Assembly (NCBI GenBank): GCA_944472135.2
Contig: CALYDD020000436.1
Coordinates: 1 to 64,000, forward strand
Direction of reading: 5' to 3'
DNA length: 64,000 nt
From: Trichobilharzia regenti
Taxonomy: Eukaryota > Platyhelminthes > Trematoda > Strigeidida > Schistosomatidae
This document shows, in pieces, positions 12,885 through 63,190 of the stretch (positions are counted from its first letter, which is position 1; each line of letters starts with the position of its first letter). The position numbers were made by a program, and so were the translations under genes. A model generated the notes under the pieces. The model worked only from the letters and a program-made list of their open reading frames with translations. It had not been told where the DNA came from and did not search any database.

Positions 12885-14305
12885 ATATATCACACACACA
12901 CACAAAGTAAGACAGTTATATTATTCACTTGATAACAAGGTTTCGAACACAATTCATCATTTTTCATAATCATATCATCAATTATAACCACACAACTTCG
13001 GAACTTCAACCTCATAGTTTTCTTTATTCTTTCATATTCACCATTGTAGGAATAGTACAATTTCCCAGATGTCTGGCTGGACTACACGTATTCACTCTCA
13101 GTTGATTCGGAATTATCAGAAAAGACGGTTGCAGTGAAAACTTTCTTCTCGACAAAGTCAGTTGATTCAATAAATGAAGTTTCAGTCAGCTATGAATCTC
13201 TGCCTCCACCTTGATGTTACCTTAATTTTAAAACTGTCATTTTTCTCATCCCATCCTATTTTATGGTTGTATGTAATTGCATGTAGTCAAGTGTAGTGCT
13301 ATAACTGAACTATTCTCAAGATTTCTTACATTATTAGTGTCAACCAACCTAGATTTTGCTGGGGTTTTGTACTCATCCAGTTTGGCTGCACCTGTTCTAT
13401 TAGTTTGACCAATGAATTTGATCTGATAATCATTCCAACAGGGTATTAGATGAACTAACTTATTTTGGTTTTATTGGATCCACAGGTTCCTTTAACCGAC
13501 AAAGCTTGTTTCGAAAATTCAGTTTACGGATTAGAATGACACTTTTATTCCTGCCTGCATTATTAACAATTCTCCGTACGTTTTCAGAAGTTCCTTCTTT
13601 GTATGGAATTACTCCTAATGGTTTATATTCCCGTATTTGGTGTTGTTATTTTACTGCGCATTTTCCACATGCATGTCATCATTAATATTATTATCATTAT
13701 CACTGGTATTATCATTTTAATTTTAAATTTCCATACATACTTCCTGGTTATTTTATCGGGGTAATTAGTAAGTTTCAAAGCTTCTCTTATATGCCTTACT
13801 GCCTGTCTTAGATTTTCCTTGGTATTACTTAGCTTTATATCCTGTTACTTAAACGTTTTACTGACACAGGATGGGATGATCGGAAATTCAAATATAGGTT
13901 TGAATGTGTGGGTTTCTTGTAAACACACTAGTGTGTTTAACTTCCCATATTCTTTCCTTTCTAGCATTACAATCTGACATTGGAGGCTCCCCTTCCTGAC
14001 TTTCCAGTTCATAAATGAGTTGAATTGCCTCCACCTCCAGTTGATATGTTGGAAAAACCTGTTTATGTCCTGTGTTCTAAGTACAGGGAATGTGTCATCC
14101 ACATACCTCCGCCATACATCTGAGGTGGGGTTGAACATATCAGTCGCTATGTTTTAACTCTCCTCTCCATGAATATATTCGCCACAACGAGGGATAATGG
14201 TGATCCCATGGTAACTCCCTTCAGTTTGTTTGTATATTTTCCCTTGGGATTTGAATATATTGTGGAAGTTAGGCATAGCTGCACTTCCAGAAATATATAT
14301 ATCAT
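12885..14305 (-). mobile_element. PLE-A copy with RT and endonuclease remnants
   Basis: Minus-strand order: RT remnant (14300-13845), Asn/Asp-rich linker DNA (about 13730-13640), GIY-YIG nuclease remnant (13640-13060), then the 3' terminal repeat with the A-type hammerhead-like fold (tgattatga ... gttcgaaac, about 12990-12950). It is colinear with 30983-32461 and 48923-50152. The nuclease is broken by stops and indels. The outer ends are lost in simple sequence, so no target duplication is claimed. Confidence 0.8.
13845..14138 (-). pseudogene. PLE-A reverse transcriptase, catalytic core piece
   Basis: The minus frame reads TSDVWRRYVDDTFPVL, containing the YVDDT catalytic box, followed by a QHIN..RWRQFNSFMNWKVRKGSLQCQI stretch and KLNTLVCLQETHTFKPIF. 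Minus-strand sequence just upstream (14200-14240) gives the motif B neighbourhood (GKIYKQTEGS.HG), frameshifted. The frame ends at 13845 before the linker. Confidence 0.8.
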
Positions 14306-14315
14306 CAAGTGTCCT

Positions 14316-14650
14316 GTAGATTAGTTGACCCTAATAAGATAAGAAATCTGGTCAACATTTCAGCCATAGCAATACATGAAATAACACAAAACCATACAAT
14401 ATGATAGGATGGGATAAGATGACAGTTTTAAAATCTAATGTGACAGCATGGTGGAGGAAGAGATTTATAAATGACTGAGGCATTATTTATCAAATCAACT
14501 GAGAGGGAATACATTTATTAGGAATGATTCAACACTTGTCCCAGGCATCAGGAAAATTTTACCGCGCCCACGACGAATAGCAAAAAAATTAGAGATATTA
14601 CTATAAACCTCCAATTTTGAAGTTGTGATGTCTTAATTAAAGATGTGATT
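14316..14650 (+). pseudogene. PLE-A endonuclease C-terminal fragment
   Basis: The plus strand encodes LVDPNKIRNL, AIHEIT.NHTI.WDKMTVLKSNVTA, then a decayed RKRFIND block, matching the nuclease C-terminus at 32047-32310. It lies head to head with the minus-strand PLE-A just upstream, which may mean a single complex insertion. Frame broken. Confidence 0.65.
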
Positions 14651-14734
14651 ATGAATAGTAAATAGTGCTGTTTTACTCACGCTGTGGTATACCTAATAAG
14701 CAAATTAATATGTAATAAAATTCATTATATATTT

Positions 14735-14935
14735 TATTTATTTGCGTTTCCATGGGAATATAACACTTCAAGTTACAGCTTCGAAGTTTCAACAGCAGTA
14801 TTTTTCACTGGATGCGATTGCCAGCCTCATACACAACCTCTTCTCTTTACAGGGCTTAATACGGGCTAAATGAATTAGAGGAGTGCGCCAGCCGGGAACC
14901 GAACCCAGCAACCACTCGCCTGATCTCCAGTTTTC
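14735..14935 (-). repeat. SINE-D
   Basis: Starts tatttgcgtttccatgggaa, cttcaagttacagcttcg; has gattgccagcctc and ctttacagggctta; ends in a tRNA-like segment (gccagccgggaaccgaaccc). Block order as in the other SINE-D copies. Confidence 0.55.
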
Positions 14936-15102
14936 TATCTTCAGCTTGCCTTGATAATCCTCATCTAAGTATGTTATGAATAGTGTTTATTATTATATTA
15001 TTATCCATCTTCCTTATTTTTAAATCCCTCCTCCACTTTGTTTATCTTAGTTAGAATTTCAGGTTTTTTTCATATAAGTTATATGTGTGTTTGGTCGGAT
15101 TG

Positions 15103-15911: not shown

Positions 15912-16142
15912 CACAGATAGATACGCCAAGCGACATTCTTCAAGAAAATCCGTCTTCCAATAAAGCCATACGAATATAAGTATGCGGATAACTAAATTTT
16001 AAGTATTAATGAAGTGAACGTCCTAATTTTCATAAATTTAAGAAACATCATCGAATAAACGTTCACCAATCTTGAGTTCCTCTTACAACATCACATACTT
16101 TCGTAAAAATTATATTTGTAAAATCTCAGCGAGATTGAAATG

Positions 16143-16197
16143 ATTAATTCCAACGTTTCGGTAGGCAATCTGCTCCGAACTTCTTCAGGGAATTAAT
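16143..16197 (-). ncRNA. PLE-E hammerhead-like ribozyme, inverted arm
   Basis: Minus strand 5' to 3': attaattcc, CTGAAGA core, one extra A, stem II strand gttcgg, loop, ctacc, GAAAC, then GTT and ggaattaat. Stem I (attaattcc with ggaattaat) pairs perfectly over 9 bp. Stem II keeps 4 of 6 pairs. Cleavage would fall after GTT, which fits the NUH rule. Stem III is minimal, as reported for PLE hammerheads. Activity is inferred. Confidence 0.7.
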
Positions 16198-16757
16198 CGA
16201 GCTTAACACTGTCACATCTTGACGACAGTTCATTTGACTTATTTTGCAATCGAATTAAATTAACAAGGAAACTATGTAATTGACACAATCATCGTGTTTT
16301 CACTCTTCGCTGTCTGCAGCAGAACGCATATCCTAAATCCATAGCTGTCCAGTCACCTGACAAACTCCAGTAGGTCGAATAAACCAGCTCAATCTTCAAA
16401 AACAAGACAAAGCCATAAGTCCGATAGAGTGCTTCAACTAAACTCTAATCCTACACACCATAATTTTGAAAATACATCTAATCTAACATCACACATTCAT
16501 GTCTGTTCAGAAATGGAGACGTTTAGACATGTTTTACAACTGTTTACCCACACACACATATACACACTGTGTTTAAAGTGTTTAACAAAAGTAGATCAAT
16601 ATTTGTAAGTCTGAGGTTAAATTTTGATCAGAGCTCATACAACTTTGTTTATTATACTTGTTGATACTTGTTTTATGACTCATGATTAGACAAAGTATTT
16701 TAAAAACAAGAGATGTTCCTTTCATATATATAAACCTCTGTTATGTTAATTTTAATT

Positions 16758-16812
16758 AATTTCCCTGAAGAAGTTCGGACCAGATTGCCGAACACAGGAA
16801 ACGTTGGAATTA
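16758..16812 (+). ncRNA. PLE-E hammerhead-like ribozyme, sense arm
   Basis: Plus strand: aatttcc, CTGAAGA (16765-16771), extra A, gttcgg with ccgaac (6 bp, 16773-16778 and 16788-16793), then acag before GAAAC, GTT and ggaatta. Stem II is perfect here, but four extra bases precede GAAA and stem I has one bulged T. It complements the lesions seen in the opposed arm. Confidence 0.65.
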
Positions 16813-16941
16813 CTCATTTTAATCTGGCTGAGATTTTACAAATATAACTTTTTACAAATGCTTACTTCTCACTTGGTGCTTAAATAATTTAGAACTATTC
16901 TGTCATATCTTGACGACAGTTCATTTGAATCACATACTTTC

Positions 16942-17689: not shown

Positions 17690-18660
17690 CAAGTAATAGA
17701 TAAGACTGAATCTTATTTTCGCTATGTTGATGACACGTTTATTATTCTTGATGTGAAAGCTGACAAGATTGAAATGTTCAAAAAGTTTATTGATGCACAT
17801 CCATCGCTCGCTCATCTTCACTTGTGAAGAAGGAGAACACGATGGTAGATTACGTTTCCTTGACGTCCAGTTGAGCAGAAGAGAGACTAGATGGTTCAAT
17901 CAAGAGAGATGTCTATAGAAAACCTACATTTGTAGGACAATATACATATTTCCTTAGTTTTGTGTCAATCCGATACAAAGTCCATTTGGTCAGATGTCGC
18001 CTCACGAATAGAGAAAGACGTATCTGTACAGATGACTCCCTACAAAATCAGTTAGGATACATCCAAAATATGCTGGTCCAAATGGGTTATCCTACAGGAT
18101 TTGTAAGGAGACACATAAAACCAAGTAAAATAAAGCTAAACTGACAACAGTTGAAAAGAAACAACTGTTCATGAAACTGCAATTTAATGGGGACGTGGCT
18201 AGCGAAGTCTTACATCTGAGATTATCGAGGGCGATAAAACGGAATTATAATGCCACAACCCTTTGTTTCTCATTTTCCAGCTGCCGACCAATTTTGATTG
18301 CTCAAGTGAAAGACAAGCTACTTAGCTGTGTCGCTTCTACGTGTATCTATAAATTTAGTTGCTCCTGTGGAAAGAGCTATATAGGGTGAACAACTAGACA
18401 GCTTAACAAACGCATTAATAAGCATCTTCCTTCATGGTTCGGAAAAGGTCAAATAAAATCCACATGAAGTTCTATTTTGGCTCATTTGATTGATGATAGC
18501 GGTCACTAAGTAGACAAACATAGTGCCTTCAAATTTGTCTATCGCATTCCATCGAGTCTTTCGAACGGAATCAGAACCCGTCTTTTACACATAGCCAAAG
18601 ATAGGGGAATTAATTCGAGAGAACAATCCCAATCTTTGCATACAACAAAAGAAGTTTGTT
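17690..18660 (+). pseudogene. PLE RT to endonuclease remnant
   Basis: Frames from 17700 read SYFRYVDDTFIILDVK (YVDDT box), then LRFLDVQLSR, the post-catalytic block. Around 18000-18150 is the thumb/linker (HLVRCRLTNRERRICTDDSLQ.., GYPTGFVRRHIKPSKIKLN). The frame at 18171-18389 gives FMKLQFNGDVASEVLHLRLSRAIKRNYNATTLCFSFSS, then STCIYKFSCSCGKSYIG, the GIY-YIG start with CxC. After a stop come TTRQLNKRINKHLPSW and a decayed C-terminus to 18660. Several stops and frameshifts; ends not found. Confidence 0.85.
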
Positions 18661-25942: not shown

Positions 25943-26360
25943 ATGAGAGAGGTTCTCAAGTATTGGTTTATGCAGCGATATTTCAGCTTGATTGGTTGGA
26001 GGATTTCACCATAAGCTGAAACCTGTTAAAGAACTATTGAAAAATCAGCCACAGGGAGTATGGACAGTTGTTTCGCCCTAGTTTGGGGCTCTTGATCCGT
26101 ACATATCCACCACAAGAGGGTTTGAACCCAGGATTCTCTGACTACAAGGCTAGCGAACACACAGACCATGAAGCCACTGGGACACAATCCAATGTCCAGC
26201 CATGAATGCTAACTTCTGCTATTTCACGACACAGTGCTACCTCTTCGCAATGTCCTTTTGGATGAGTGAGTGCGAACTGATGAAGAGTTTTAAACTAGGA
26301 CGAAACAGCTGTCCAGTACTCTCAGGTTTTCCAATGGTTCTCTTACTGATGAGGGAGGTT
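25943..26360. mobile_element. SINE-a2 insertion, opposed tail, probable 12-bp duplication
   Basis: Near-identical atgagagaggtt (25943-25954) and atgagggaggtt (26349-26360) bound the insert. The left 300 bp is minus-strand SINE-a2: ggaggatttcacc, gaactattg, gggagtatggacag, tRNA-like head at 26110-26190, gctaacttctgc. At about 26272 it flips to plus strand: gcgaactgatgaagagt, taaactaggacgaaac, agctgtccagtactc, ggttctcttactgatg. The plus tail shows the hammerhead-like order: CTGATGA, a GTCC-type stem (decayed), GAAAC, self-complementary acagctgt, then GTCC. Confidence 0.75.
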
Positions 26361-26937: not shown

Positions 26938-27805
26938 GTACAAGAATGCAACTTGCCCACTGTGGTACAGTATAATTCCATTATGAATAAAATTGATTTT
27001 AATAAAGTCTGTCAGTGTCATACAGTAATATTTACTGATAAATATGTTTCGAACACAATTTATTGCTGCTCATAATCATATTAAGTTAATCATATGGTTC
27101 CATTATTTCTCGTTTCTTGATTTGATGACTGGTAGGAGTGTTTTACGTATCTCTGGTATTGGTGAAGAGTCACTCATATTCCATGTGTTAGGTAGTAGAT
27201 TCTACGAGCAAAGTTTCACTAATCAACCTCTCTCTCTCTCTCATTTACCTATATTACTTTGCAGAATTGTAACTCTATCGAACCTTATTGTCTAGTTGTG
27301 CGTTAATGCATGGAGCACGAGTGCTGAATGTCTCTCTAAATAACTAATTTTTGTTGGATCAATCATTCTGTACTTAGCTAGATTCTTATATTCTGACAAT
27401 CGCCTACCTACTGGTTTGACCTATGTAGTTTTGACTTAACTCACAGTCATTTCAAGGTCTTTTGTAGGTTCAAATATGATCCTAATTCTCGCTTTATTGA
27501 AAATTCTACATAGGGGCCCCTCCTTATATGGTGAAACCACTGTAGATACCTTATATTCTTTCTTACTTATGTTATAATTATTATTTTCACCATTATTTTT
27601 ATTTTCTTTTTTTGACCTTTTCTTATTTTCCTAATGAATTTTCGAGGATACTTATTTGACACCAACACTTCTTTTTTATCTATCTCACTTTATCATGTAG
27701 ACTTGTTGATGTACTCCTTGATGCTACCACTCCGTTTGTTTGGCTTTTCATATACAGTTTTATATGGTATATATTACTGTATAACACTGTGAGACTTTGA
27801 AATAA
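26938..27805 (-). mobile_element. PLE-A copy, 5'-truncated with inverted arm
   Basis: The 3' terminal repeat lies at the left (26955-27095), with accattatg.ataa..., the tttgataaa-like block and an A-type hammerhead-like fold (27035-27095, minus strand). Nuclease remnants are at 27340-27550; minus-strand translation gives SPYKEGPLCRIFNKARIRIIFEPTK, VGRRLSEYKNLAK, IDPTKISYLE. At 27765-27800 the terminal repeat reappears inverted (tactgtataacactgtgag). No target duplication found. Confidence 0.75.
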
Positions 27806-27810: not shown

Positions 27811-28135
27811 AAGATTTGTAACTCAGGTGGATGATTTGCAATTGATAGTGTTCTCTGAGCTCATTGGTTTAATTGCGGAGCTTTCATCGTCTTTCTGGAC
27901 GACATCTTCAGCGCAGTATTTAGGATAAAGTGAAATGATTTAAATTTCTTCATGAGTCTCCCGTTAACCATCTTTAGATATTTATTGACAGTTTTCTATT
28001 GATTGGGATTTTAAACTTCCTGATCACCTGATTTACTTCTTATTAGTTGGTATATATTTCATCTTTATTAACGTGTTTATTAATGGCACTGCAAACTGTG
28101 AGACTTTATCAAAATAAATTTTCTCCATAATGGAA
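27811..28135 (-). mobile_element. PLE-C terminal repeat plus PLE-A end
   Basis: 27811-27930 matches 47866-48000 (ggtggatgattt, tgtcgt, cagctcagg) and holds the PLE-C hammerhead. 28090-28135 (caaactgtgagactttatcaaaataaattt, ccataatgg) is a PLE-A terminal piece. Sequence between them is unassigned. Probably two decayed insertions. Confidence 0.6.
27874..27915 (-). ncRNA. PLE-C hammerhead ribozyme, complete core
   Basis: Minus strand: stem I tgcg/cgca; core CTGAAGA with all invariant positions; one extra T; stem II gtcgtc/gacgat (six pairs including one G-U) around loop cagaaa; GAAA; then GCTC, with cleavage expected after CTC. Stem III is reduced to almost nothing, as known for PLE hammerheads, which are thought to work best as dimers. 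This is the most complete C-type core in the window. Confidence 0.75.
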
Positions 28136-31026: not shown

Positions 31027-32355
31027 ATGGCTATAGAGCCAGTCCAAAACGAAGTCATTTCTAACCAAGAACTCCAACTTAGGACGAAAATGCCACTTGA
31101 GGACATAATGTTTAGAGTGCAGCTATGTGTGACTTCCACAGCATTTAAATTCCAAGGGAAAATATACAAACAAAACTTAGGGAGATGCCACGGGATCACC
31201 AATATACCCTTTTGTGGCATATATATTCATGGATAGGTGGGAAAGATAACGATTGCAACGTTCAGCCATACCCCACAAGTATGGTGGAGGTATGTGGATA
31301 ACACATTCACCGTACTTAGAACTCAGAATATAAATAGGTATTTCGAACACATTAACTCAAAGGTGGAGGCAATTCAATTCACTTATGAATTAGAAAGTCA
31401 GGAAGGGTAGCTTCCAATGTCAGATTGTAACGTTAAAAGGAAAGAAGATGGGAAGTTAAACACACTAGTGTGTTTACAGAAAACCCACACATTCAAACGG
31501 ATATTTGGACATCCGATTATCCCGACCTACGTCAGGCAAAATAGGATTGGTGAAATGTTTAAGTGACAGAACACAAAAACTAAGTAACACCAAGAAAAAT
31601 CTAAGACGGGAAATGATTCACATAATAGAAGTCTTGAAACTTAATAATTACTGGGATAAATTAGTCAGGAAATATATGTAAGGAAAAGTAAAATAAAATA
31701 AATAACGATACAAGTGATAGTGATAATAATAATTGAAAAAATAATATTATTGACGACATTCATGTCAAATATGTGCAAAACAACACCAACAATAAGGAAT
31801 CTAAATCATCATTAGTAATTTCATACAAGGAAGGAACCTTAGAAACCTTACGTAGAATTCTTAAAAAAGAAGGAATTAAAGTAGCACTTAAACCCACAAA
31901 CTCAATTAGAAACATTCTTTGTCGGTTAAAGAATTCAGTTCACCTAATACCCTGCCTGAGATGATTGTCAGGTCAAATACATAGGTCAAAGTAGTAGAAC
32001 AGGGGCAGTCAAACCAGCTGAACATAAAAACCTAGCAAAATCTAGATTGTTTGACCCAAATAAGATAAGAAATCAAGAGAATAGTTCAGCTATAGCACTA
32101 CATGCAGTTTCACACGACTATGCAATAGAATGGGATAGGATGACAGTTTTAAAATCTAATGTAACAACGACGTGGAGGGAAAGATTGTTAACGGAAGCTT
32201 TGTTTATCGAATCAACTGCAAATACATGTAATAGGAATGATTCAACACCTGTCCAGATGGATATCTGGAAAGTCGTGCTACCCCTACGACGACAAATAAC
32301 AGAGAACAAAGAAAACTATAAAACTGAATTTTCGAAGTCGTGTGATTACAACTGA
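31027..32355 (+). pseudogene. PLE-A RT and GIY-YIG coding remnant
   Basis: 31027-31236 reads FRVQLCVTSTAFKFQGKIYKQNLG (motif B neighbourhood). Linker frames give REMIHIIEVLKLNNYWDKLVRKY. 31773-31964 gives NNKESKSSLVISYKEGTLETLRRILKKEGIKVALKPTNSIRN, the run-up to the nuclease. The GIY-YIG core itself is decayed near 31960-32000 (QIHRSK where KYIGQS is expected). 32047-32355 gives VFDPNKIRN-like sequence, SSAIALHAVSHDYAIEWDRMTVLKSN, RERLLTEALFIESTANTCNRND. Frameshifted and interrupted, so no intact enzyme. Confidence 0.8.
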
Positions 32356-32405
32356 TATGATTATGAACAATGATGAATTTTTTGTTCGAAACTGTGTCAT
32401 CCAGT
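32350..32405 (+). ncRNA. PLE-A hammerhead-like fold
   Basis: aactgat pairs with atccagt (one bulge) as stem I. The core reads ATGATTA, with A at position 3 and T at position 8, followed by one extra T. Stem II is gaaca/tgttc. GAAAC is intact, and the cleavage triplet GTC lies just before stem I. The same fold occurs near 12970, 27065, 49000, 62340 and 63160. Confidence 0.6.
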
Positions 32406-33289: not shown

Positions 33290-34320
33290 ATTAGGCCCAT
33301 AGGTTCTGAGTGGAATATTGGGCTTCGGCAACACACCCTCAATTTCTTCTGTTTCCTACCAATCTCTTCAGGTGGGTCTATGACTCTTCATAAGCTCTCA
33401 TCTCCTCCGATTAACAAATCAATGAATTTGCAGAAGTTTGCGAAGAGTTCCACTTCTTCATGCGTGATATGCAGTTGGCTATCGACCAAAGCGCAGATGT
33501 ACTGCTCAGCAGTCCGCTCCGTCCTCCTATATGGCTGCCTGTGAGACCTGGCGATTGACAGTGGACGACAGGAAAGGATTAGCTGTCTTCGATCATAGGT
33601 GCCTGCGTTCTATTGACATAAGTATAAAACTTGGGCACAGTGGTAGAGTATAACTCCATTATGGATAAGATTTTATTTTGATAAATCACACAGTGTTGTA
33701 CAGTTATATTATATTATATATCAGTTAATATAACTGTACAACACTGTCAGATTTATCAAAATAAAATCTTATCCGTAATGGTGGCCTGCGTTCTATCTTC
33801 CGTGCGAGGTGGTACAATAAAGTAAGGAGGGGAAATCAATCGACGAGGCTGTGAAATTACATCGACTTAGATGGTTAGGACATGTGTTACGTATGCCTAG
33901 TAATCCCTTTCCTCGATGGGCAAGTTTATCTGACACAGGGTCGGGCTGGAAACGAGCCAGTGGTGGTCAAACCAAAACATGGCTTCATCTGTCAATGAAA
34001 TCCATAACAGTTAGTTTAGGCCAGAGCCACGTTGGAAGGTGTAGACTGCTTGGCTGTTGTGGTCCTCGGGGTGGTAAAAACCAATGGCTGGAGACAATCG
34101 GTGGTATGGCTCAAAATCATTCTCAATGGCTTGCGCAAATGCTTCCAATCCTTGTGACTTATGATTTCCAATGAAGCTGTATTGTTCTTTGCTATTAATA
34201 TTCCTTTGTCTCATACCTCTGTTCACTGTCTTTATTATGCATTTTTTCAGCTTTCTTCTCTTGCTTTGTGTGCTACATGGAATGTGACGACTTGAACTGC
34301 TATATATCGGTGCAAAGTTT
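33290..34320 (+). pseudogene. Third LINE type, C-terminal remnant, copy 2, split by a PLE
   Basis: Before and after the insertion the sense reads VRSVLLYGC.ETWRLTVDDRKGLAVFDHRCLRSI, then RARWYNKVRRG and (from 33851) KLHRLRWLGHVLRMPSNPFPRWASL, TGSGWKRASGGQTKTW. That YGCETW...FDHRCLR...LRWLGHVLRM order is a common non-LTR LINE tail after the RT. A short frameshift follows YGC. 3' UTR likeness to copy 1 extends to about 34310. The RT core is missing. Confidence 0.7.
33601..33796. mobile_element. Minimal PLE-A hairpin insertion, 13-bp target duplication
   Basis: The insert (33614-33783, 170 bp) sits between exact gcctgcgttctat (33601-33613, 33784-33796) inside the LINE. It is almost wholly two opposed PLE-A terminal pieces: 33654-33712 (ccattatggataagatttt...) and 33724-33783, its inverted counterpart, around a short AT loop. 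There is no coding sequence and no hammerhead core. Such hairpins are what remains when PLE reverse transcription aborts early and the end is joined in opposed orientation (inference). Confidence 0.85.
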
Positions 34321-35219: not shown

Positions 35220-35262
35220 TACTGACGTTTCGCTATTTAATGCTAATAGCTTTATCAAAGTA
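35220..35262 (-). ncRNA. PLE-F hammerhead-like fold
   Basis: Minus strand: tact, then TTGATAA (T at position 3, A at position 8), one extra A, stem II gctatt/aatagc (six perfect pairs) with loop agcatta, GAAAC, GTC, and agta pairing with tact. Everything fits the hammerhead plan except that the 3-8 pair is U-A rather than C-G. The PLE-F at 43279-43327 has the same core. Confidence 0.65.
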
Positions 35263-35512
35263 TTATTAAACCGGAATTTACAAAATCCACTCAGCATATA
35301 TATAACAAAGAGTTAGGGGTGAGAAAAATAGACTTAGGTTAAGTTAGAAGGACATAATGAAAGTCAAAATGTCCACTGGACACCTGTGAAGTAATTAGGA
35401 GTTTGAAATTCTGTCTAGAACACATTTATTTTACATTTAAAGGGAGTTTATATATACAGACAAATGGTGTTGCTATAGGTTCACCAGTCTCCCAGTAGTC
35501 ACCAACCTTTCC

Positions 35513-37223: not shown

Positions 37224-37411
37224 ATTGTTATTTTGACTTTCAATACTTCCCTTTAACTTGATTTACCTAAGTCTGTTTTCTCACCTCTTAACTCTTTGTT
37301 GTATATATTCTGAGATTTTGTAAATTCCGTTTTAATAATACGTCAGTAAAAACAATATCCCTTTGTTTTTCATTCATTGGGAAATACGAAAACCTTTACC
37401 ACTTGACTGCT

Positions 37412-43138: not shown

Positions 43139-44040
43139 CTTCAAGCTAGACCAGATATGTCCCAACCAAGTCCAATTTTAACGGTTTGAAAAAATTTGGG
43201 CATTAGGTATATGATATATTCATTATAATAAAGGTTTTTGTATTTCCCAATGAATGGAAAACAAAACGATATTGTTTTTACTGACGTTTCACTAATTAAT
43301 ACTGGTGCTAATAGCTTTATCAAAGTATTATTAAACCGGAATTTACAAAATCCACTCAGCATATATATAACATGGAGTTAATTTCAATATTACCAAAATT
43401 AATTTTGTGGCCTGATCCTATGGCGTGTAGACCTATGGGTGATGATTTTTCAAGTTTTCTACTTCAACTGAATTTCTCGGTGGTCGAAGAGATGCTCTAC
43501 GGTGTTTATTTCTTCTGATTTTGATTTCTCTCTGGTGATGTTTGTCCGATGTAGATTGCATCACATTCGAAGCATTTTGTTTTATAGACACAATTAGATA
43601 GAGAATCTTTTGGGATTTGGTTTTGAATATGGACAAGGTTGCTTTGAAGTGTGCCTGATGTTTTGAAGAAACTTGTGATGTCAAGCTGATTGAGTGCTCT
43701 CCTGATATCATCTGACGTCTCTGCTCTATACGAAATGACGACTGTTGATGTCCATCTTTTCGGAATGCGTTTTCGGCCATACTTAATGTCTGTGTTGGTT
43801 TTGTTGATTAACTTCCCTGGGGAGTTGTTGTGCGTGAGAGTTTCAGTAATGTTTGATATTTCTTCTTATTATTCTTTTTCATCCGTTATCAGAGACTGTG
43901 CTCGTCTAAGAAGACTTGAAACAACTGAAATCTTTGCGCTGATAGGGTGTGATAATTTGAAGTCTAAATATTTATTTGGGTTTTGTTTTTCATTCATTGG
44001 GAAATACAAAAAAATTTATGATAATGAACTTCAAGCTGGA
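43139..44040 (-). mobile_element. PLE-F copy 2, probable 12-bp target duplication
   Basis: The insert (43151-44028, 878 bp) lies between cttcaagctaga (43139-43150) and cttcaagctgga (44029-44040). The minus strand holds the end of the RT/linker (43980-43680), nuclease pieces (43640-43440, with CVYKTKCFECDAIYIGQTSPE-like sequence across frames) and the sense terminal repeat at the left (43155-43380) with a hammerhead-like fold at 43279-43327. A short inverted terminal piece (43983-44027) is at the 5' end. Most landmarks match 35080-37411. Confidence 0.85.
43279..43327 (-). ncRNA. PLE-F hammerhead-like fold, copy 2
   Basis: Same plan as 35220-35262: tact, TTGATAA, extra A, gcta... with a weaker stem II (4 pairs before a mismatch), GAAAC, GTC, agta. 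The U3-A8 core is unchanged between the two PLE-F copies although the stem II loop differs. Confidence 0.6.
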
Positions 44041-47865: not shown

Positions 47866-48390
47866 GAGAAGATTTGCAGCTCAGGTGGATGATTTTGATG
47901 TCGTTGTGTTCCTTGAGGTGTGCGCTGAAGATGTCATCCAGTAAGGTGATGAAAGCTTCTCAAACCAACTATCCACCTCAAAGAACACAACCATATCAGA
48001 AAGATAAAGTACCTAGACTAGACTAGTCACTTCCAATCGTATCTACAAATTCAACTGCACTTGTGATCGAACGAGGGATATTGGCCGTTTCTCTAGGAAC
48101 ATGGTTTTTAGTGCTCACTCGAAAATATTCAACACTGTAGCTAAATAGAGGTGTAGTAGAAACCATGATCAACAGTTCGATATTAGACCACTTGGTTCAA
48201 ACCGGCCAGACACACAGTCATCAGTTAAGAATCTTTTTCTATCATCATTTACTGGGTACCAAATAAGTTGCTAAAAAAATATCAAATTACTGCATGCTTC
48301 AAACAGCAGATACTGTCGCGATTCACGTGAAGAAACCAGTGATTTGTGTGTAAAATAAACAAGTCCAGTCAGCCAATGCTACTACCTTGG
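47866..48390 (+). mobile_element. PLE-C terminal repeat and nuclease remnant
   Basis: 47880-48000 is a terminal repeat like 27811-27930, with a long hairpin: gttgtgttccttgaggtg (47903-47920) pairs with cacctcaaagaacacaac (47974-47991). Inside is a PLE-C hammerhead core: CTGAAGA at 47925-47931, extra T, gtcatcc/ggtgat, GAAA at 47951. Then SNRIYKFNCTCDRTRDIGRFSRNMVFSAHSK (48030-48125), a decayed GIY-YIG, and ADTVAIHVKKPVICV (about 48310-48352), the C-terminal block. Confidence 0.7.
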
Positions 48391-48909: not shown

Positions 48910-50165
48910 ATTATCCTGCATGTAATTCCATATTAGTTTGTTTATTAGATGTATCACACAGTGAAACAGTATTTTATACTGGATGACGTTTCGAACACAA
49001 TTTATTGTTCATAATCATATCAATTGTGGTCACACAACTTTGAGATTTTAGTTTTATAGTTTTCTTTGTTTTCTCCTATTTGTTGTATGGGCAGTAGAAT
49101 TTTCCAGATATCTGGTTGGACAGGTGTTGAATCGTTTCTATAACATGTATTTGCCGTTGATTCGATAAACAAAGCTTCTGTTATCAATCTCTCCCTATTA
49201 GATTTTAAAACTGTCATCCTATCCCATCCTATTGTATGGTTGTATGTAACTGCATATAGTGCTATAGCTGAACTATTCTCTAGACTTCTTATCTTATTTG
49301 GGTCAACCAAACTAGATTTAGCTAGGTTTTATGTTCAGCTAGTCTGACTGCCCCTGTTCTACTAGTCTGACCTATGTATTTGACTTCACAATCATTGCAG
49401 GCAGAGTATTAGATAAACTAAATTGTTTTGTTTTAATGGCTCCACAGGATACTTTAACCGACAAAGCTTGTTTCTAATTGAGTTTGTGGGTTCGAATGCC
49501 ACTTTTATTTCTGCCTTGTTAAGAATTCATGCGTAAGGTGGTTTCCGAGGTTCCTTCCTTGTATGGAATTACTGTTGATGATTTAGCTTCCTTATTGTTG
49601 GTGTCGTCATTAATATTATTATTATCTCTATTATCATTACCATTATTATTATTATTATTATTATTGTTATCATTATTATTATCACTATCACATCTATCAT
49701 TATTTATTTCATTTTTACTTTTCCTTACATATTTCCTGACTAATTTATCCAGGTAATTATTAAGTTTCAAGGCTTCTATTATGTGAACCATTTCCCGTCT
49801 TAGATTTTCCTTGGTACTGCTTAGTTTTGTGCTCTGTCACTTCAACATTCCTCCAATCCAATTTTTACTGACATAGGATGGGATGATTGGAAGTCCACAT
49901 ATCTGTTTGAATGTGTGTGTTTCCTGTGAACACGAGTGTCTAATTCCCCATCTTCTTTCATTTTACATTGGAATCTAACATTGGAAGTTCCCCTTCCTGA
50001 ATTTCCAATTCATAAGTGAATTGAATTGCCTCACCTTCGAGTTGATGTGTTCGAAAAATCTATCTATATCTTGTGTCACTGTGTGTGATACATCTAATAA
50101 AGAAACTAATATGGAATTACTTACTACCACAGTGCCCAAGTTTTACACATATATTATCCTGCATG
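48910..50165 (-). mobile_element. PLE-A copy with exact 13-bp target duplication
   Basis: The insert (48923-50152, 1230 bp) lies between exact attatcctgcatg (48910-48922, 50153-50165). Minus strand: RT tail (50080-49850), Asn/Asp-rich linker on an ATT repeat (49791-49519; translated NNNDNNNNNNNNNGND), nuclease N-part (49560-49320), nuclease C-part (49310-49020: SSAIALYAVTYNHTIGWDRMTVLKSN, ERLITEALFIESTANTC) and the sense terminal repeat with hammerhead-like fold (48978-49027). The inverted terminal arm is at 50080-50152. Broken frames. Confidence 0.9.
48978..49027 (-). ncRNA. PLE-A hammerhead-like fold
   Basis: Minus strand: acaattgat, ATGATTA core (A3, U8), extra T, gaaca/tgttc stem II with loop ataaattg, GAAAC, GTC, atccagt closing stem I with one bulged C. 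The core is the same as in five other PLE-A copies of the window. Confidence 0.6.
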
Positions 50166-50405: not shown

Positions 50406-50841
50406 TTAACCTCTTCCCTATTCGTTCCCTGCGAAAAATTTTGATTTGTTTTTCTTTTTTAATTTTACTCTTGGTTTGCTTATGCTTTAATAAATAATTC
50501 ACTATTATCACTCTCATATGTTCATTTTGTTCATTTTCACAACCTCTTCATACTTGTTAAATTGACATTCAACTACCACCTTTATTCTTACTCAAGAGCA
50601 ATTTTAACCTTATCAAATTTCTATTTTTGTGCCGTTGAGTAACATGTAATTTACATCTTTTAATTTTCACTTCTAAAGCCACTTTTGATTAATTATATCA
50701 ATTATGTCACCCCCTATTATTCAATAATAGACCACTATTAAAGATATCCTTTGGCGGCCTGTTTGACACCTGGGCTACCTTTTCCTCCATCTACATGTTG
50801 CATCTAATAAGTCATGTTTTCATTCTTAATTTTAATAAAAT
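50406..50841. other. Probable LINE 5' flank, no gene
   Basis: AT-rich, with gcggcctgtttgacacctgggctac near 50754. It could be the LINE 5' UTR, but without a second copy of this part the border cannot be set. Confidence 0.35.
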
Positions 50842-51640
50842 ATGATCACGAATCGCATAAAATACAGTAATTCATTCATTAAACGTTTCAAACCATATGA
50901 CTTTCATGCATCTAATAAATCTAAGAGAAAACATCACGCTGGCTGGCAGCGTGCACTTAAACAGACACCTTTATATCGTACAACCATTCCTGTTATTGTC
51001 ACTTCAAACTGCCGTTCACTTCCCAACAAAATTATGCATCTCCAGTCTCTCTTATCATCTGATACTTATCACAATACGGCGATTGTTGCATTACAAGAAA
51101 CATGGCTCCATGAACTCTATGATGACAATCTGGTTTCCCTAAATGGTTTTACATTGTTTAGACAAGATCGACTATGCTCCAGAAAGAAAAGAGGTGGAGG
51201 TGTTGCAACTTTCATTCATTCTCAATGGTCAACTTCAAATAATGTATGTTTTTCTTACTCTAATGACTTTATTGATTGTATAACGGTCAAATGCCGCCCG
51301 AAACACTTATCCAAGTTAAATACGTCTTCATCTCAAACATTTATGTTACTCCTGGCTGTTCTGCCTCGATCTATCTGATTTTGCTGATGAATTCACTGAA
51401 TTCGCCGTTACACATCTTGAAAACTCTTTATCAGTTGTCACAGGAGATTTTAACTGCTGTGATTGTTCTTTCCTCGTATCATTAGGTCATGCCAATATTG
51501 TTAAATTCCCTACTCGACTTGATAAAACTCTGGATCTAGTGTTTATTAATGATGAGGAAATATATGAAGTACGCCGACGTGCTCCTATCATGAACTCAGA
51601 TCATTGTATTATTCGGATATTACCTAAGATATACAGCAGA
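50842..51640 (+). pseudogene. LINE APE-type endonuclease
   Basis: Target-nicking nuclease of the exonuclease III/AP-endonuclease fold. 50842-51378 reads PVIVTSNCRSLPNKIMHLQSLL (N-terminal Asn box), IVALQETWLHELYDDN (catalytic Glu), KKRGGGVATFI. After a frameshift near 51375: LSVVTGDFNCCDCSFLVS (GDFN, catalytic Asp/Asn), RLDKTLDLVFIND and NSDHCIIRILP (SDH, catalytic His, about 51595-51625). All four active-site boxes survive, but in two frames. Confidence 0.8.
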
Positions 51641-51699
51641 TCTCACTTTAATATCTTCTCAAATCTGTCCAAGAAAACACAGCAAAGGTGTTACTCACA

Positions 51700-53294
51700 A
51701 GAAAATATGCTCAAACTAAGATGTATGCTAAATGACACTAACTGGGAACTTTTCAACGAACACAAACTGGATGATACTATTTCCAATTTGACTGACTATC
51801 TTAAATTCTGCCTTGATATATGCTGTCCAAAACAGATAATTTTCAAAAGAATGGATCGTTTTCTTCCCCTCATCTCAAAAAACTTCGTAGAGAAAAAGAG
51901 AAGCTGTACAAGACAAAGAATAAATCTGGTCTTAAGAAGATAAACACCCAAATTAAATCTGAAATCAAGAGACTAAACAACATTTATAATCAAACAATAC
52001 TGTCTTGTAAAACCTCAGAAAACATATGGAAGCTTTTTAGAGAAATTACTGGTTGTGGTAAGCATAATAATTTTGCCTCTTCTATTGATGTAAATACTCT
52101 CAATAGATCTTTCATCCGCCCTCCAAATGTCCTTTCTGCCTTCAATTTAACTAATAACACGACCAGTGACTTTCATAGTTTCAATACTTCTGATGTTCTT
52201 AAATGTTTGAAATCTCTTAAACCTTCCCAGAGTCTAGGCCCTGATGGTATACCTGCCATTGTTTAAAGAAATGTGCTGATATTTTAAGTAACCCACTTAC
52301 AAGCATTTTCAATACTTCTTTTTCTAATAATAATGTACCTTCTCTGTGGAAAGATATTAAAATCATCCCTGTACCCAAGTCTGGTTCTGGAGATAGTGTT
52401 AAGTTTAGACCAATTGCCATTACCTCTCCTTTTTTGAAACTGATGGAGAAATTACTGTTACAAAAACTCATTCCCTCCCTAAGCTTCTCAAACGATCCAA
52501 AGCAGTTTGCTTACAAACAGGGTAGAAGTACTTTGGATGCTGCTGCTGTGTTTCATCACAACATTGTATCCTCCTTAGACAAAGGGGCCAAGTATGTCCG
52601 TTGTACTTTCCTTGATTACACATCTGCTTTTGACTCTGTACCTAGAGGCCTTTTGTTAAACAAGCTTAGCCTTACACAAACTGAGTCCTGGGCTATCAAC
52701 TGGCTGCACTCTTACTTCTCCAATAGGATGCAGTACACGGTATATAATGGTGTAGCTTCCTCTCCTTTGCTTACTGAAGCTGGTGTTCCTCAGGGTGCTG
52801 TTCTCTCGCCGTTTCTCTTTTCCTTCTTCTTACATGACTTACCTCTCTCAGACGAAATCAACTTCGTCAAATATGCAGATGACCTGACTGTTTCGCTTCC
52901 CGTTAAGTCTCAGTCAGACTGCTTCAAATTAAATAGCTTCCTGTCGGACATCAGTCAGTGGTCTAAACTAAATGGCCTCATGCTGAATCCCTCAAAATGC
53001 CAGACTGTCGACTTCTCCTTTAGGCATAAACGAGATCTACAAACACTAGTAAGCACTCATGATGCCTGTAGAATTGAGGGGACTATAATTGAAACAAAGT
53101 CTAATGCAAAATACCTCGGATTAGTTCTATCTTCCGACCTTACTTGGTCATCTCATATCCAAATGATTTCCAAGAAAGTGTTTCGTCTAACCTACTACAT
53201 TAAGAAACTCAGACTAACTGGAGTCCCTCAACCTCTGCTTTCACAATTTGTCAACTCTCGTATCCTACCTATTTTACTTTCTACTCCCCGTTAG
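51700..53294 (+). pseudogene. LINE reverse transcriptase
   Basis: The linker KLRREKEKLYKTKNKSGLKK leads to LKCLKSLKPSQSLGPDGIPAIV (RT entry block, ends at a frame break at 52266). 52434-53294 continues LMEKLLLQKLIPSL, FAYKQGRSTLDAA, TFLDYTSAFDSVP (motif A, Asp at residues 61 and 67 of this frame), AGVPQGAVLSPFLFSFFL (motif B), FVKYADDLTVS (YADD at 147-150), LNPSKCQ, KYLGLVLSSDLTWSSHI. The catalytic residues are all present, which points to a fairly recent death by indels. Confidence 0.85.
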
Positions 53295-57689: not shown

Positions 57690-57948
57690 AAATAAAGTAT
57701 AATTATATTTTAATAGTTTACACACAATGATAAGTTTTGTTATTGGTAATATTTCGAGCAAAATTACTGCCCGTGTTCACACCACTGTTGGAATTGTTTT
57801 ATTCACACATTTATGATTTGTATTCATATATATAGTTCATTATTATTATTTTGTTCATTCATGTTTTGTGTGTGCATATGTGTGTTCAGAATTATACTCC
57901 ACATTCATTCATGTGTTTGTATTTAGAATTATATTCCAAGTTGTTGAT
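57690..57948 (-). repeat. PLE-B terminal repeat, sense arm
   Basis: 259-bp inverted repeat with 58646-58904; I found no mismatch by eye. It overlaps the end of the nuclease frame, which stops at 57909. On the minus strand it contains the B-type hammerhead-like fold at 57744-57784. Confidence 0.9.
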
Positions 57949-58645
57949 AGTTGTACTGAGTCACCCTTGTTACATGTATCCGGTGTGACTTTAATGAATA
58001 TCGATTCTGTTATGAGTCTTTCTTTCCATTGGTTCATGTTTGTTTTTAGAATACACACATTCTCCCAATCGATATTGTGGTTTTTGTCCCATGCATGTGC
58101 AGCTATGGATGAATTTTTTTCAAGATTTTTGTAGGCTTGTGTCCCTGTTGGTTGACCTTTAGTTAGGCGTTTATGTTCATTCACTCTTATTTTGAGTGAT
58201 CTGGACGTTTGCCCCACATATTTAGTTGGACAGTCAGCACAAGATATTTTATAAATCAAATTGTTTTTATCCATCATTTTTATGGGATCTTTTAGTTGAT
58301 TTATTTTATTTTTGATTAGATTTGTCGGTTTAAAGGTTGTTCGAATGCCGATATTTTTGAGGTTTCTTTGTATTGCCTCTGATGTACCATTTTTATATGG
58401 TATTGCGACTGTTTTTCTCCATTCTTCCTTCTTGTTATTCTCCGGTTTTACTCTCTTTTTTCTCTTTTTTATATTATCTTTTATAAATTCTCTAGGGTAG
58501 TTGTTTTCGAGTAGCATTTTGAATAGGACTTTTATTTCTTTACGCTGGTCCTCTGGTGCTGTTGTAAGTCTACGTATTCTATCTGCAAGACCCTGTATTA
58601 ATCCTCGTTTTACCGAGAGTGGATGAGCTGAGTAATAGTCAAGGA
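57909..58645 (-). CDS. PLE-B RT tail plus GIY-YIG endonuclease, 5'-truncated
   Basis: Open from the arm junction at 58645 to a stop at 57909, about 245 codons. It starts FLDYYSAHPLSVKRGLIQGLADRIRRLT (end of the RT domain and start of the linker) and runs through PREFIKDNIKKRKKR (basic) and VAIPYKNGTSEAIQRNLKNIGIRTTFKPTN. Then comes the nuclease: IYKISCADCPTKYVGQTSRSLKIRVNEHKRL (GIY, CxxC, YIG as YVG, Arg), SSIAAHAWDKNHNIDWENVCIL and ERLITESIFIKV with the acidic residue expected at the metal site. The RT catalytic core is missing through 5' truncation, so this is a nuclease-bearing fragment, not a full protein. The first Met (58517) is internal. Confidence 0.9.
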
Positions 58646-58904
58646 ATCAACAACTTGGAATATAATTCTAAATACAAACACATGAATGAATGTGGAGTAT
58701 AATTCTGAACACACATATGCACACACAAAACATGAATGAACAAAATAATAATAATGAACTATATATATGAATACAAATCATAAATGTGTGAATAAAACAA
58801 TTCCAACAGTGGTGTGAACACGGGCAGTAATTTTGCTCGAAATATTACCAATAACAAAACTTATCATTGTGTGTAAACTATTAAAATATAATTATACTTT
58901 ATTT
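58646..58904 (+). repeat. PLE-B terminal repeat, inverted 5' arm
   Basis: Exact-looking inverted copy of 57690-57948. Its last four bases (attt) overlap the start of the right target duplication, so the border has microhomology. Confidence 0.9.
58810..58850 (+). ncRNA. PLE-B hammerhead-like fold
   Basis: tggt pairs with acca (stem I). The core is GTGAACA, that is G at position 3 and C at position 8, then one extra C. Stem II is gggca/tgctc (five pairs, one G-U) with loop gtaattt; then GAAA, T, ATT as cleavage triplet, acca. The mirror copy is at 57744-57784 (minus). If it is a hammerhead, the C3-G8 pair has been swapped to G3-C8. Confidence 0.55.
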
Positions 58905-58912
58905 CGGTGGTA

Positions 58913-59339: not shown

Positions 59340-60065
59340 TGTTACAAGATTTCATCATGAGCTGACATCAGTTAGAGAAACAGTGCGAAACCTGCTGGGA
59401 GTACTGGACAGCTGTTTCGTCGCTTTAGTTTGAGCATCTTTATCTGCACGCATCTGCCGGAGTTCGAACCAAGCACCCTCTAGTTACAAGTCTAGCGAGC
59501 CTACAGACCATTAGGCCACTTACTGGGACCCTATCCAATGACCAGCTCATGAATTCTAACTTCTGCCAATTCACGACATAGGGCAACCACTAGGGAATGT
59601 CATCGGTGGTTAGTATTTGTCCTCACACCCAACCTGCTGTAACTACAAACCAATACTTGAATATCAGTAAGTTGCTTACTAGCGGCTGGTTCTGCTCATG
59701 CAAGTAGTTATCTGGAGTTTTACAGGGAAACAGTGACCGGTAAGGTACAGCAGGTTGGGTGTGAGGACAATTACTCACCATCGATGGCAGTGGCTGGTGG
59801 TTATGCTATGTCATGAAGTGATAGAAGTTAGAATTCATGAGTTGGCCATTAGATAGAGTCCCAGTGAGTGCGTTGACGGTCTACGAGCTCACTAGCCTTG
59901 TTACCAGAAGATCCTAGGTTCAAACCCCTTGTGTTGAGTGATTATGATGAAGAGTCCCAAACTGGGATGAAAGAGTTGTCCATTGTTCCCAGGTTTTTCA
60001 GTGATTATCTAACCGATGTCAGCTAATGATGAAATATTGTAGGAAATCCGTCAATTCCGTACAAA
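59340..60065. mobile_element. SINE-a2 large opposed pair
   Basis: Left (59340-59650, minus): tgagctgacatcagttagaga, ggagtactggacagctgtttcgtc, tRNA-like head 59455-59525, ttctaacttctgccaattc, gtcatcggtggttag, cacccaacctgctgt. Right (about 59655-60065, plus): a full unit, caatacttgaatatcag, tactagcggctgg, cagcaggttgggtgtgagg, gaagttagaattcatga, tRNA-like head 59850-59930, atgatgaagagtcccaaac (hammerhead-like), gatgtcagctaatgatg. The halves share long inverted pairing across the junction near 59650. Confidence 0.8.
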
Positions 60066-60619
60066 TCAATACTTTGTAATTACTTGAATATTCGCCTTTA
60101 TTAGTGATGTCGGTTAGCAGTGTAAAATGATGATATGAACCAGTAATTCTGATTATCATCAACATAAAACATCAGATACACTGAGGACAGCTGTTTCATG
60201 TACACAATTTTGAAGTGACGTAAAGGATGCTTGATGAAATTAATTAACACTTACCACAGCCATTTAAACCAGTCCCTGTTCAGAAGATATATAACATAAT
60301 TCAGCATGAATAGGGTCATTAAAGTAGACTGTTATGAATACATTTTTAAGAAGGATCTTACTTTCCACATGATTATTATTAACGCAGAAGAATGAGAGCT
60401 TATTGAGAGATTTGATAAAATTATTGATATGGCATTTAGTGATACACTATTAATATTTGGATATTAAAAACTGTACTCCTTGCATTATTATGATATGAAA
60501 CTTGAAATAACTTTCCACACGAAGAACTCATAAGACAAGACAACGATGTTGGTATTCTTGTATCTTTTATAGAAGACCCCTTCAAAATGCACAATCAATA
60601 TTCAATTTTTATTTAATAA
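60066..60619. other. No gene recognised
   Basis: Probably includes the decayed 5' side of the next PLE near 60550-60619 (KMHNQYSIFI in one frame). Otherwise nothing. Confidence 0.35.
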
Positions 60620-61460
60620 GGCAGTATACGGACAAATCGACGATGTGGCAACGGGGTCAACGCTACTAAGACCCACTCTAGCCATTATTTACCTAGCGAA
60701 ACTAGAGTATAGGCCCTTGAAAGATGTAATTGATGAACTAGAATTTTACTGTCGATACATAGATGATACATTTTTGATTGTGATGAAAAATGAGGATGCA
60801 GTAAAGAACATCCTGGACAAGTTTAATAATTTTCAGCCTACAATAAATTTTACCATTAAGAAAAAAAGAGACTATAGTATTTCATTCCTAGACGTCCTTA
60901 TAACCATAAAAGAGGATGGCACAATAAAAAGGAAGAAGTGTACATAAGAGGCCTTCATCATCTTGTCAGTATACTCATTTTCTCAGCTTCGTGCCTTTGA
61001 AACACAAACAGAGTCTAATAAAGTGATTGGTCCGCCACAGAACAAAGGTAATCTGCTTTTCTGTAGAATGTCTTAATGAACAGCCTAACGTTAATAAACA
61101 GTTGCTGAGTAAGAACTGTTACCCAGAGTAATTCATTGCCAAGTAACTGATCCTAAGGCCAAGGCAGGCCAAAGTATTAACAGATCCGAAAAAGGGCTTT
61201 ATTCTTATTACTTTAGTCGCTTGAGGATAAAACCAGTGATATATTAACACAACGCCTGATCAGTACAGCGGTAAAAAGAGCATTCAGTGTTGCTGAATTA
61301 TGTCATGTCTACGAAGCGTCCTTTATTTTGCTTGCTGAGGTTAAAGGTAAATTGCCTAACTTCGCATCTTCTTTGAATATATACTCATCTGAATGCTCTT
61401 GTGGAGCCATTTAGTTGCATATAGCGTACAATTAGGCGTGTTTACTGTTGGATTTTCAAA
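60620..61460 (+). pseudogene. PLE RT core and decayed endonuclease
   Basis: 60620-60947 reads AVYGQIDDVATGSTLLRPTLAIIYLAKLE (motif B, ATGSTLLRP in place of AMGSPLSP), then FYCRYIDDTFLIVMKNEDAVKNILDKFNNFQPTINFTIKKKRDYSISFLDVLITIKEDGTIKRK, with the YIDDT box and the FLDVLI block intact. Later frames (61320-61440) carry VKGKLPNFASSLNIYTSECSCG, then a decayed YIGRTIR region. Stops after 60945. No terminal repeats seen. Confidence 0.8.
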
Positions 61461-62253
61461 CTATACTCTAATACATTGTCTTAATTCTACTCCTAAATTG
61501 TATAAACACTCTAGAGATTATGTAAGAAATTTTTGCTTGAACCTTTACCGTAATAATATAGATAGAATTAATCAACTCCGCTTGTGACTTTTCAGGATTA
61601 CCTAACCTCCAGGGCATGAAACAAGGATATCCAAATTCTGTAGTTGTTGTCAGCTGATGATGAAACATTGAAAATAAGTAGACTTTGTCGATGTTGATAT
61701 AGGAATGAGGCGATGATGGAGACTCGAATTTTGTTTATCGTCTACTATTTTTGGAATGTCGTTTAGCTTTTCGTGAACAGTATAATTAAAATAGCTATTC
61801 ACGGATAAAAGTTTATATCTGCAGTATTCACAAAGCATAAGTCAGTATTGCTAAACTGTTTAAGTGATGTATGTTCAAGAAACATCTGGAAGGTACTGAT
61901 ACAGTATTATTTGGCCAATCAGGTTACAGTTTTTGAGACGTTTTAAAAAGCAGAAGCATGGGTGGAAAATAACTGAACAAAATATCGTCTGTGATAAAAG
62001 GAGTATACATTAGAGTAAAACACTGGCTCACCTCCATCGATCTTTAGGACTGCAAATTCGAAAAAACCATTTTTGAAGGAAATATTGTTTGAAACACAAA
62101 GCACAGACAAATGAAATGTAAACTGTCATTAAAAAAAGTTGCATATATAGTTACAACCACATGTACATTTTGTATGATGAAATATATGACACTGACTACC
62201 CTCAATAAGAAATAACGCATTTCAATGGCTTTCAGCAGATAGATTCTCCCAAC
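61461..62253. other. No gene recognised
   Basis: The frames at 61393-61587 and 61468-61668 have no recognised domain. Otherwise AT-rich. Confidence 0.4.
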
Positions 62254-62312
62254 TTGAAACTCACAATATGATTTTATTTTGATAAATCACACAGTGTTGT
62301 TATACAGTATTA

Positions 62313-62370
62313 TTAACTGATGACCACATGCTTCGAGCACAAACTAATGCTCATAATCATATCAAGGTAC
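62313..62370 (-). ncRNA. PLE-A hammerhead-like fold, inverted arm
   Basis: Minus strand: gtaccttgat, ATGATTA, extra T, gagca/tgctc, GAAGC (A to G change in the GAAA box), GTC, atcagttaa. Stem I is long (taccttgat with atcagtta, one bulge, one mismatch). The purine change predicts loss of cleavage in this arm. Confidence 0.6.
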
Positions 62371-63132
62371 TCACTCACACAACTTTTACTCCATTTATAT
62401 ACATAAGTAAAAAACTGATGGTTAGACATTTGAATAATATCAATCTAAGATAAAGTACGTGCATAAGACCCTACGTAGGATTCTCAATAAACCAGGAATT
62501 AGGATGGCGTTCAAATCTACAAACCCATTCAGAGACAAGCCCTGTAAGCTAAAGGACCTTAAAGGTTGACCCAATTGGACAAAATAATATAATTTACAAA
62601 ATACCTTGCAATAACTGTGAGATAAGTTAAATACATAGGTCAAACCAGTAGTCAGGAATTGTCAGACTGTCAGAATATAAGAATTTAGCTAAGGTCATAA
62701 CGATTGATCCCAAGAAGATAAGTAATTTAGAAAAATGCTCAGCGATTGCCCTGCATGTATGTAGGTGGAGAGAGAGAGAGATTGATTACTGAATCCTGGT
62801 TCATGAAGTGAATCTACACCCAACAAATGCAACAGAAATGACTGAATACAAGTACCAGAGATATGGAAGATATTATTACCGCCAGTCAGTCAAATCAGAG
62901 GAGGATAATAAATAATCTTAAAATTCTATTACGATTTACGTCCATCAAAGCATTCTAATAAATTACTTATTTTGACTATAAAAATACTCATCTTATTTCC
63001 CATATGACTGTACTTGATGATAACACTCATATCGTTTTTTGAGTGTACTTTATCTTATATTGATTTTATTCGTCTGTCTAATCATCAATTTTTATTCATG
63101 TATATAAATGAAGCAAGTAAGTTGTGTGAGCG

Positions 63133-63190
63133 ATTACCTTGATATGATTGTGAGCAATAGTTTGTGCTCAAAACGTTGTTATCAGGTAAT
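63133..63190 (+). ncRNA. PLE-A hammerhead-like fold, sense arm
   Basis: attaccttgat pairs with atcaggtaat (10 pairs with one bulged T). Core ATGATTG, extra T, stem II gagca/tgctc, then AAAAC where GAAAC is usual. Stem I is the best of the PLE-A set, while the core has two changes relative to the other copies. Confidence 0.6.

Follow-up and report, generated by a model that had tools for sequence, protein, structure and literature searches.

Small hammerhead ribozymes associated with Penelope-like elements (PLEs) are described as minimal type I motifs that have no helix III and possibly function as dimers (PMC7761336, PMC6155905), and their role has been described as unknown (PMC7761336). Departures from the C3-G8 core pair have been reported for several hammerheads. 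Perreault 2011 describes natural U3-A8 covariation, cites earlier in vitro proof, and still counts such 3-8 covariants as hammerheads (PMC3088659). In the Anolis PLE hammerhead PAc, C3G and G8C each abolish cleavage, and the double change rescues part of it (PMC11167929). In cave-cricket satellite hammerheads, C3 is reported as changed in four and G8 in two of 198 sequences. Here we analyse a 64,000-nucleotide stretch of the trematode Trichobilharzia regenti (contig CALYDD020000436.1, positions 1 to 64,000; "the window"), which contains motifs that probably represent small type I hammerheads in the pseudo-long terminal repeats (pLTRs) of several PLE families, with one Watson-Crick 3-8 pair per family and with cleavage likeliest as dimers.

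These motifs resemble the PLE small hammerheads of Cervera and de la Pena 2014 and of Lunse, Weinberg and Breaker 2017 in their type I order, their reduced or absent helix III, their location in PLE pseudo-LTRs and the proposed cleavage as dimers (PMC7761336, PMC6155905). As far as the citing reviews allow the comparison, they differ in that three families here carry A-U, G-C or U-A at 3-8. The Anolis element PAc is also a PLE hammerhead, but its wild type is C3/G8, whereas PLE-B here is naturally G3-C8 (PMC11167929). PLE-F shares the compensated U-A change with the hammerheads of Perreault 2011 (PMC3088659) and thereby adds a further example of a variant already on record; an earlier sequence-only reading of this DNA had overstated the newness of U3-A8.

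The 3-8 pair differs between families: PLE-C and PLE-E have C-G, PLE-F has U-A, PLE-A has A-U and PLE-B has G-C. The canonical CUGANGA with C3 and G8 is found in C and E, and A, B and F differ from it at 3 and 8. Among the copies in the window (coordinates followed by label and strand), PLE-B has the core GTGAACA and stem III A-UA-U in an inverted pLTR arm at 58810-58850 (58814+), with an identical copy at 57744-57784 (57780-). PLE-A has ATGATTA and A-CG-U at 48982-49021 (49018-). PLE-F has TTGATAA and A-CG-U at 35220-35262 (35258-), in an inverted arm upstream of the open reading frame (ORF) fragment 35492-36351 (+), and TTGATAA again at 43279-43327 (43323-), after the fragment 44012-43380. 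PLE-C has CTGAAGA and A-GC-U at 27874-27915 (27911-); its further copies are 47921-47962 (47925+), with a compensated stem II, and 6422-6463 (6426+), with GAAG and an altered stem II. Local alignment finds six copies of A, two of F, three of C and the two identical copies of B, and A3 and U8 are present in 6 of 6 A cores. Since the B copies are a single inverted pair of arms, four independent 3-8 states are represented in the window, and E adds its canonical core.

To count such motifs by rule, we used a descriptor that fixed TGA, A9, GAAA, U16.1 and an H17 other than G, required a stem II of at least 4 bp, a stem I of at least 3 bp and a complementary XY in A-XY-U, and placed no constraint on positions 3, 7 and 8. 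Under canonical spacing, neither strand of the window held a match. Once the sequence had been read, 0-2 bases were allowed after A9, and both nulls were computed with this altered descriptor. It yielded six strict matches, each with a single additional base after A9, ahead of stem II, and the 3-8 pair was Watson-Crick in all six: G-C at 58814+ and 57744-, A-U at 48982-, U-A at 43279- and 35220-, and C-G at 27874-. The proposal of the sequence-only reading that all four Watson-Crick pairs occur at 3-8 across PLE families was thereby confirmed, with the cores where it had placed them. Its layout had to be revised to include, in these six, the extra base after A9 and a loopless palindromic stem III.

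Might such motifs be hairpins that arose by chance and happened to catch the eye? At canonical spacing, a core-only pattern does occur just as often as expected (7 matches vs 6.98), but the full descriptor behaves differently. A first-order Markov null gave 0.01 matches per window (100 replicates) and a second-order null gave 103 matches in 2,907 replicates, 29 of them Watson-Crick, so that the nulls span 0.01-0.035 per window. With the palindrome and A9 requirements dropped there were seven matches, the same six plus 41531- (A.G), against a null of 0.43 per window. Together with thousands of genome matches against zero reversed controls, which refute it for A and B, these near-zero nulls make chance a very remote explanation. 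The elements U4 G5 A6, A9, GAAA, A15.1-U16.1 and H17 are present in the 6 window matches and in 12 sample matches described below because the descriptor requires them, and one such element is absent from some diverged copies; the 3-8 pair was left free and is Watson-Crick in 18 of 18 strict matches (window plus 250 kb). It is also the only position pair that is Watson-Crick in all four families with four types (positions 2.4-10.2, at least 3 apart, one sequence per family). Across the window, NTGANNA background sites are Watson-Crick at 3-8 in 298 of 1019 cases, which gives a chance of 0.007 for four families and of 0.025 for the three non-canonical ones.

Copies beyond the window were sampled in twenty 10-kb stretches of one contig, C1 (200 kb), and then in five more (50 kb). 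The 200 kb held eight strict matches, all Watson-Crick (6 C-G, 1 A-U, 1 U-A), and the further 50 kb held four, all A-U. All 12 are paired, and they stem from at most 8 insertions because eight of them form inverted pairs. In a relaxed scan of the window plus 200 kb, 13 of 14 matches were paired, and the one exception was the hammerhead of Rfam type at 26280+; the null (652 replicates) gave 0.066 matches, 37% of them Watson-Crick. In family alignments over the window plus 250 kb, restricted to BLAST pieces that cover the core at E<=1e-3 and omitting the C copy 6426+, C rows were C-G in 15 of 17 and U.G in the other 2. One of the 15, L028:2002-2043, carries extra core bases and is scored as a normal C-G because reading letters against the query drops insertions. 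F rows were U-A in 4 of 5, with one deleted, E rows C-G in 2 of 3, and B rows G-C in 2 of 3, one alignment being weak.

Genome-wide searches (954 Mb, 548 contigs) used patterns for A and B, and their place counts include both inverted arms of one insertion. The PLE-B pattern spans 35 places, leaves 3, 7 and 8 open and tolerates up to 3 mismatches. It was found at 915+872 = 1,787 places, and the PLE-A pattern at 6,451+6,621 = 13,072; the reversed-pattern control gave 0 in each case. Among the 100 matches listed for each, which are the best-matching copies, from contig C1 and without mismatch, and were counted by eye, PLE-B has 96 G3-C8, 2 G.U, 1 A.C and 1 G.A, and PLE-A has 97 A3-U8, 2 U.U and 1 A.C. 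CTGANGA-N12-GAAA occurs 5,081 times in the genome vs 1,945 in reversed controls. In viral contigs the full F pattern had no match, a shorter F pattern had 27 loci with no strict match among them, and 37 pattern stretches included no relative; nor did 71 pattern stretches from bacterial genome contigs.

Section 8 of Perreault 2011 names only U-A, in several examples, whereas A-U and G-C are common here at these 13,072 and 1,787 matched places (PMC3088659). A and B thus appear to be new as fixed natural cores. A competing view, which touches the novelty and leaves the mechanism as it is, holds that these 3-8 types are already listed in a survey, published in 2017, of hammerhead variants associated with PLEs. 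The title of that survey covers this class and U3-A8 was reported in 2011 (PMC3088659), but in our literature searches on 3-8 and on PLE hammerheads neither A3-U8 nor G3-C8 came up as a fixed natural core, with the likeliest source, Lunse 2017, outside their coverage. We see prior description as a serious possibility, if the lesser one.

An alignment of all families with MAFFT misaligned C and F, so pairs were counted on A+B and on C only. In the seven A+B rows the 3-8 pair is A-U in six and G-C in one, and the third pair of stem II is A-U in three, G-C in three and G.U in one; the covariation score of 0.333 was reached in 8 of 500 shuffles. Among the 100 PLE-A genome matches listed, that third pair is G.U in 2 and either G-C or A-U in the other 98. 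In 17 distinct C rows stem II is 89.2% paired and 3 of its 6 pairs are changed on both sides; its covariation score is 0.273 vs 0.183 in shuffles, and 0 of 500 shuffles and no slid version scored as high. Such shuffle controls have the limit that related sequences can exceed them even without structure. Stem I has 3-5 bp in strict matches, and 80.8% of its cells in C are paired. The six A copies conserve the core at 0.98, compared with 0.72 in the upstream and 0.66 in the downstream flank. The excess over the nulls, the stem II covariation and the ORF context support the proposal that these are real hammerhead variants, as judged from sequence.

These data also bear on a founder effect, in which one master copy per family happened to have complementary letters at 3 and 8, and dead A, B and F ribozymes inherited them. 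The common descent of the copies and the chance of about 0.025 for three non-canonical pairs leave room for it, as does the Anolis PLE study, in which no public RNA-seq reads were seen to end at the hammerhead site (PMC11167929). Against it stand the conservation of the core of six diverged A copies far above their flanks, the two compensated stem II forms found across many A copies, and the pairing in all four families, and we consider a founder effect unlikely.

Several observations weigh against selection-maintained 3-8 pairing in active ribozymes. Because the copies share descent, each family counts as one event at 3-8, and 96 of 100 cannot be read as 96 separate events. Outside 3, 7 and 8 (plus R/Y in A), moreover, the 100 listed rows are exact copies, and all come from a single contig. 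Among the A rows of the window plus 250 kb only 24 of 33 are A-U, 3 of these 24 with a broken UGA, and the rest are 3 G.U, 3 A.A, 1 A.G, 1 U.U and 1 gap. As for pairs with changes on both sides, 38 of 500 shuffles for A+B and 89 of 500 for C had as many. Looser scans add chance matches: one, run without a null, gave 14 rows, and another gave 13 rows vs 5.85 expected, with pairing in 6 of 13. Three Rfam-type copies described below have A3.G8, which seems to be an uncompensated core change that has apparently spread in that repeat, so mismatches at 3-8 seem able to spread as well. Lastly, a short ORF fragment beside the C copy 6426+ matches A and B, not C. The claim that pairing is kept is supported by four types in four families and by 96 of 100 listed B and 97 of 100 listed A matches, though with shared descent these counts stop short of a formal test of selection. 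Four families with four pairs suggest that it is the pairing that matters, not the letters.

Most of the copies in the window neighbour fragments of retroelement ORFs that are related to a GIY-YIG-like ORF. An open frame at 57909-58646 (-) is the 3' part of the PLE-B ORF. PLE-B also has two 240-bp pLTR arms, 57690-57929 (-) and the inverted arm 58665-58904 (+), which are 100% identical; the hammerhead 57780- directly follows this ORF. The frame is GIY-YIG-like, with a Pfam score of 20.1 bits, below the cut-off of 22.6, and no intact ORF was seen. As a query it retrieved four proteins, two from Trichobilharzia regenti, one from T. szidati and one unnamed ENA protein, which are annotated as helix-turn-helix or unnamed and in which we presume a reverse transcriptase part from the look of the sequence. 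The putative Penelope-like assignment draws on the sub-cut-off GIY-YIG score, the pLTR layout and sequence that by its look we take for reverse transcriptase and GIY-YIG, and given this assignment the reduced stem III and pLTR location are traits shared with PLE-associated small hammerheads.

Fragments matching these four proteins are scattered across the window. Motifs lie downstream of same-strand fragments for A (12973-, 27079-, 32357+, 49018-, 63144+), B (57780-) and F (43323-), as does C 47925+, about 490 bases further on. They are inverted and upstream of fragments at B 58814+, F 35258-, A 62360- and C 6426+, and the E copies are upstream of the fragment 17714-18515 (+); for C 27911- no ORF fragment was assigned among the protein matches in the window. 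By translated similarity A and F each form a group, C and E share a third, and B is nearest to A. That the motif directly follows the end of the ORF fragment in A, B and F would also fit a fold that is retained because the element's own enzymes bind it or use it as a template, with the 3-8 pair merely aiding folding. This explanation is improbable in our judgement, because GAAA, U16.1 and H17 co-occur with UGA and A9 far above chance and a plain hairpin needs none of them.

How would a PLE hammerhead with a changed core pair work? In strict copies stem III is a loopless 4-nt palindrome, A-XY-U, which cannot close as a monomer hairpin, although pairing between two copies would give a palindromic stem of 4 bp; some A copies have AC-NNN-GU instead and could form a 2-bp hairpin. 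A cofold run paired stem I and II arms across strands, in a model that covers those stems and leaves stem III outside it. We propose that each PLE family settled on one Watson-Crick 3-8 pair while U4 G5 A6, A9, GAAA, A15.1-U16.1 and H17 stayed constant, and that the 3-8 pair would hold this strand of the core in its active conformation. A possible general acid is the 2'-OH on the ribose of residue 8 (PMC6155905), so the identity of the base could be free as long as 3 and 8 pair. The palindrome would form stem III only between two copies, making cleavage most likely in dimers, either of two pLTR copies in one transcript or of two transcripts, and a cut directly 3' of H17 would release a unit-length element RNA. 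This dimer folding, the cleavage and the role in the element cycle are what the sequence predicts.

The wider proposition, that natural hammerheads are active with any Watson-Crick 3-8 pair and that a single genome has fixed A3-U8 and G3-C8 and multiplied them to more than 14,000 matched places, we advance tentatively, at slightly less than even chances. If it is true, the base of residue 8 would be replaceable in nature, PLE families would have drifted via pairing-neutral paths (G.U among A copies, U.G among C copies), and family-specific stem I and stem III palindromes would perhaps keep dimers within a family. With all four pairs present in its related elements, such a genome offers a natural mutational series on the role of the core pair and on crossing between pairs, and thousands of copies are available for testing selection on PLE ribozymes.

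The window also contains six Rfam hammerhead matches, none of them PLE, and no PLE motif is among the matches listed at E<=10, in line with the prediction that standard searches would miss them. Hammerhead search models treat C3 and G8 as near-invariant, and whole ribozyme families can stay invisible as a result. We take the Rfam-type matches to be SMalpha-like. Three of them, 12566-12611 (-), 26274-26319 (+) and 59941-59986 (+), have A3 opposite G8 (two by Rfam alignment, the third by eye); the others are 19328- with C-G, 20756- without a base at 3, and the degenerate 26060-. The SMalpha/W-element hammerheads of schistosomes are of the same type I class, represented in the window by these matches (RF00163; PMC8490949). 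In the Rfam alignments they differ from the PLE motifs in that A9 is followed by no additional base and stem III is a hairpin, and the three local copies are unpaired at 3-8.

In further copies of PLE-A, stem III is readable as a 2-bp hairpin AC..GU at 32353-32402 (32357+) and has decayed at 27035-27083 (27079-); GAAG replaces GAAA in the inverted arm at 62315-62364 (62360-), the copy at 63140-63186 (63144+) has ATGATTG with AAAA replacing GAAA, and the sixth copy is at 12927-12977 (12973-). PLE-E had been read as a C3-G8 fold. Its CTGAAGA and good stem I were found in both copies, but each, as judged by eye, has damage in stem II or at its junction: 16142-16198 (16188-) has a 10-bp stem I and a damaged stem II, and 16761-16809 (16765+) has an intact stem II with extra bases ahead of GAAA.

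Elsewhere in the samples, L044:282-2582 carries three PLE-A copies in 2.3 kb, all ATGATAA (A3.A8), possibly a dead sub-lineage that still duplicated. Inverted PLE-A hammerhead pairs stand head-to-head on contig C1 at 4185957/4186002, 4404703/4404748, 8636253/8636293 and 24574369/24574407, their matched stretches only about 3-10 bases apart, and this arrangement recurs. A PLE-F pLTR copy at 37280-37400 (+) is without a hammerhead, and its gap falls between two AC dinucleotides, as though reverse transcriptase or repair had skipped the folded ribozyme. A long near-perfect inverted repeat at 33663-33774 has below-cut-off Rfam scores for miRNA precursors, and parts of it match the region near PLE-A 62360-. 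Long open frames at 50839-53294 (+) and 132-1079 (+) resemble, from the look of their sequence, the endonuclease and reverse transcriptase parts of non-LTR retrotransposons.

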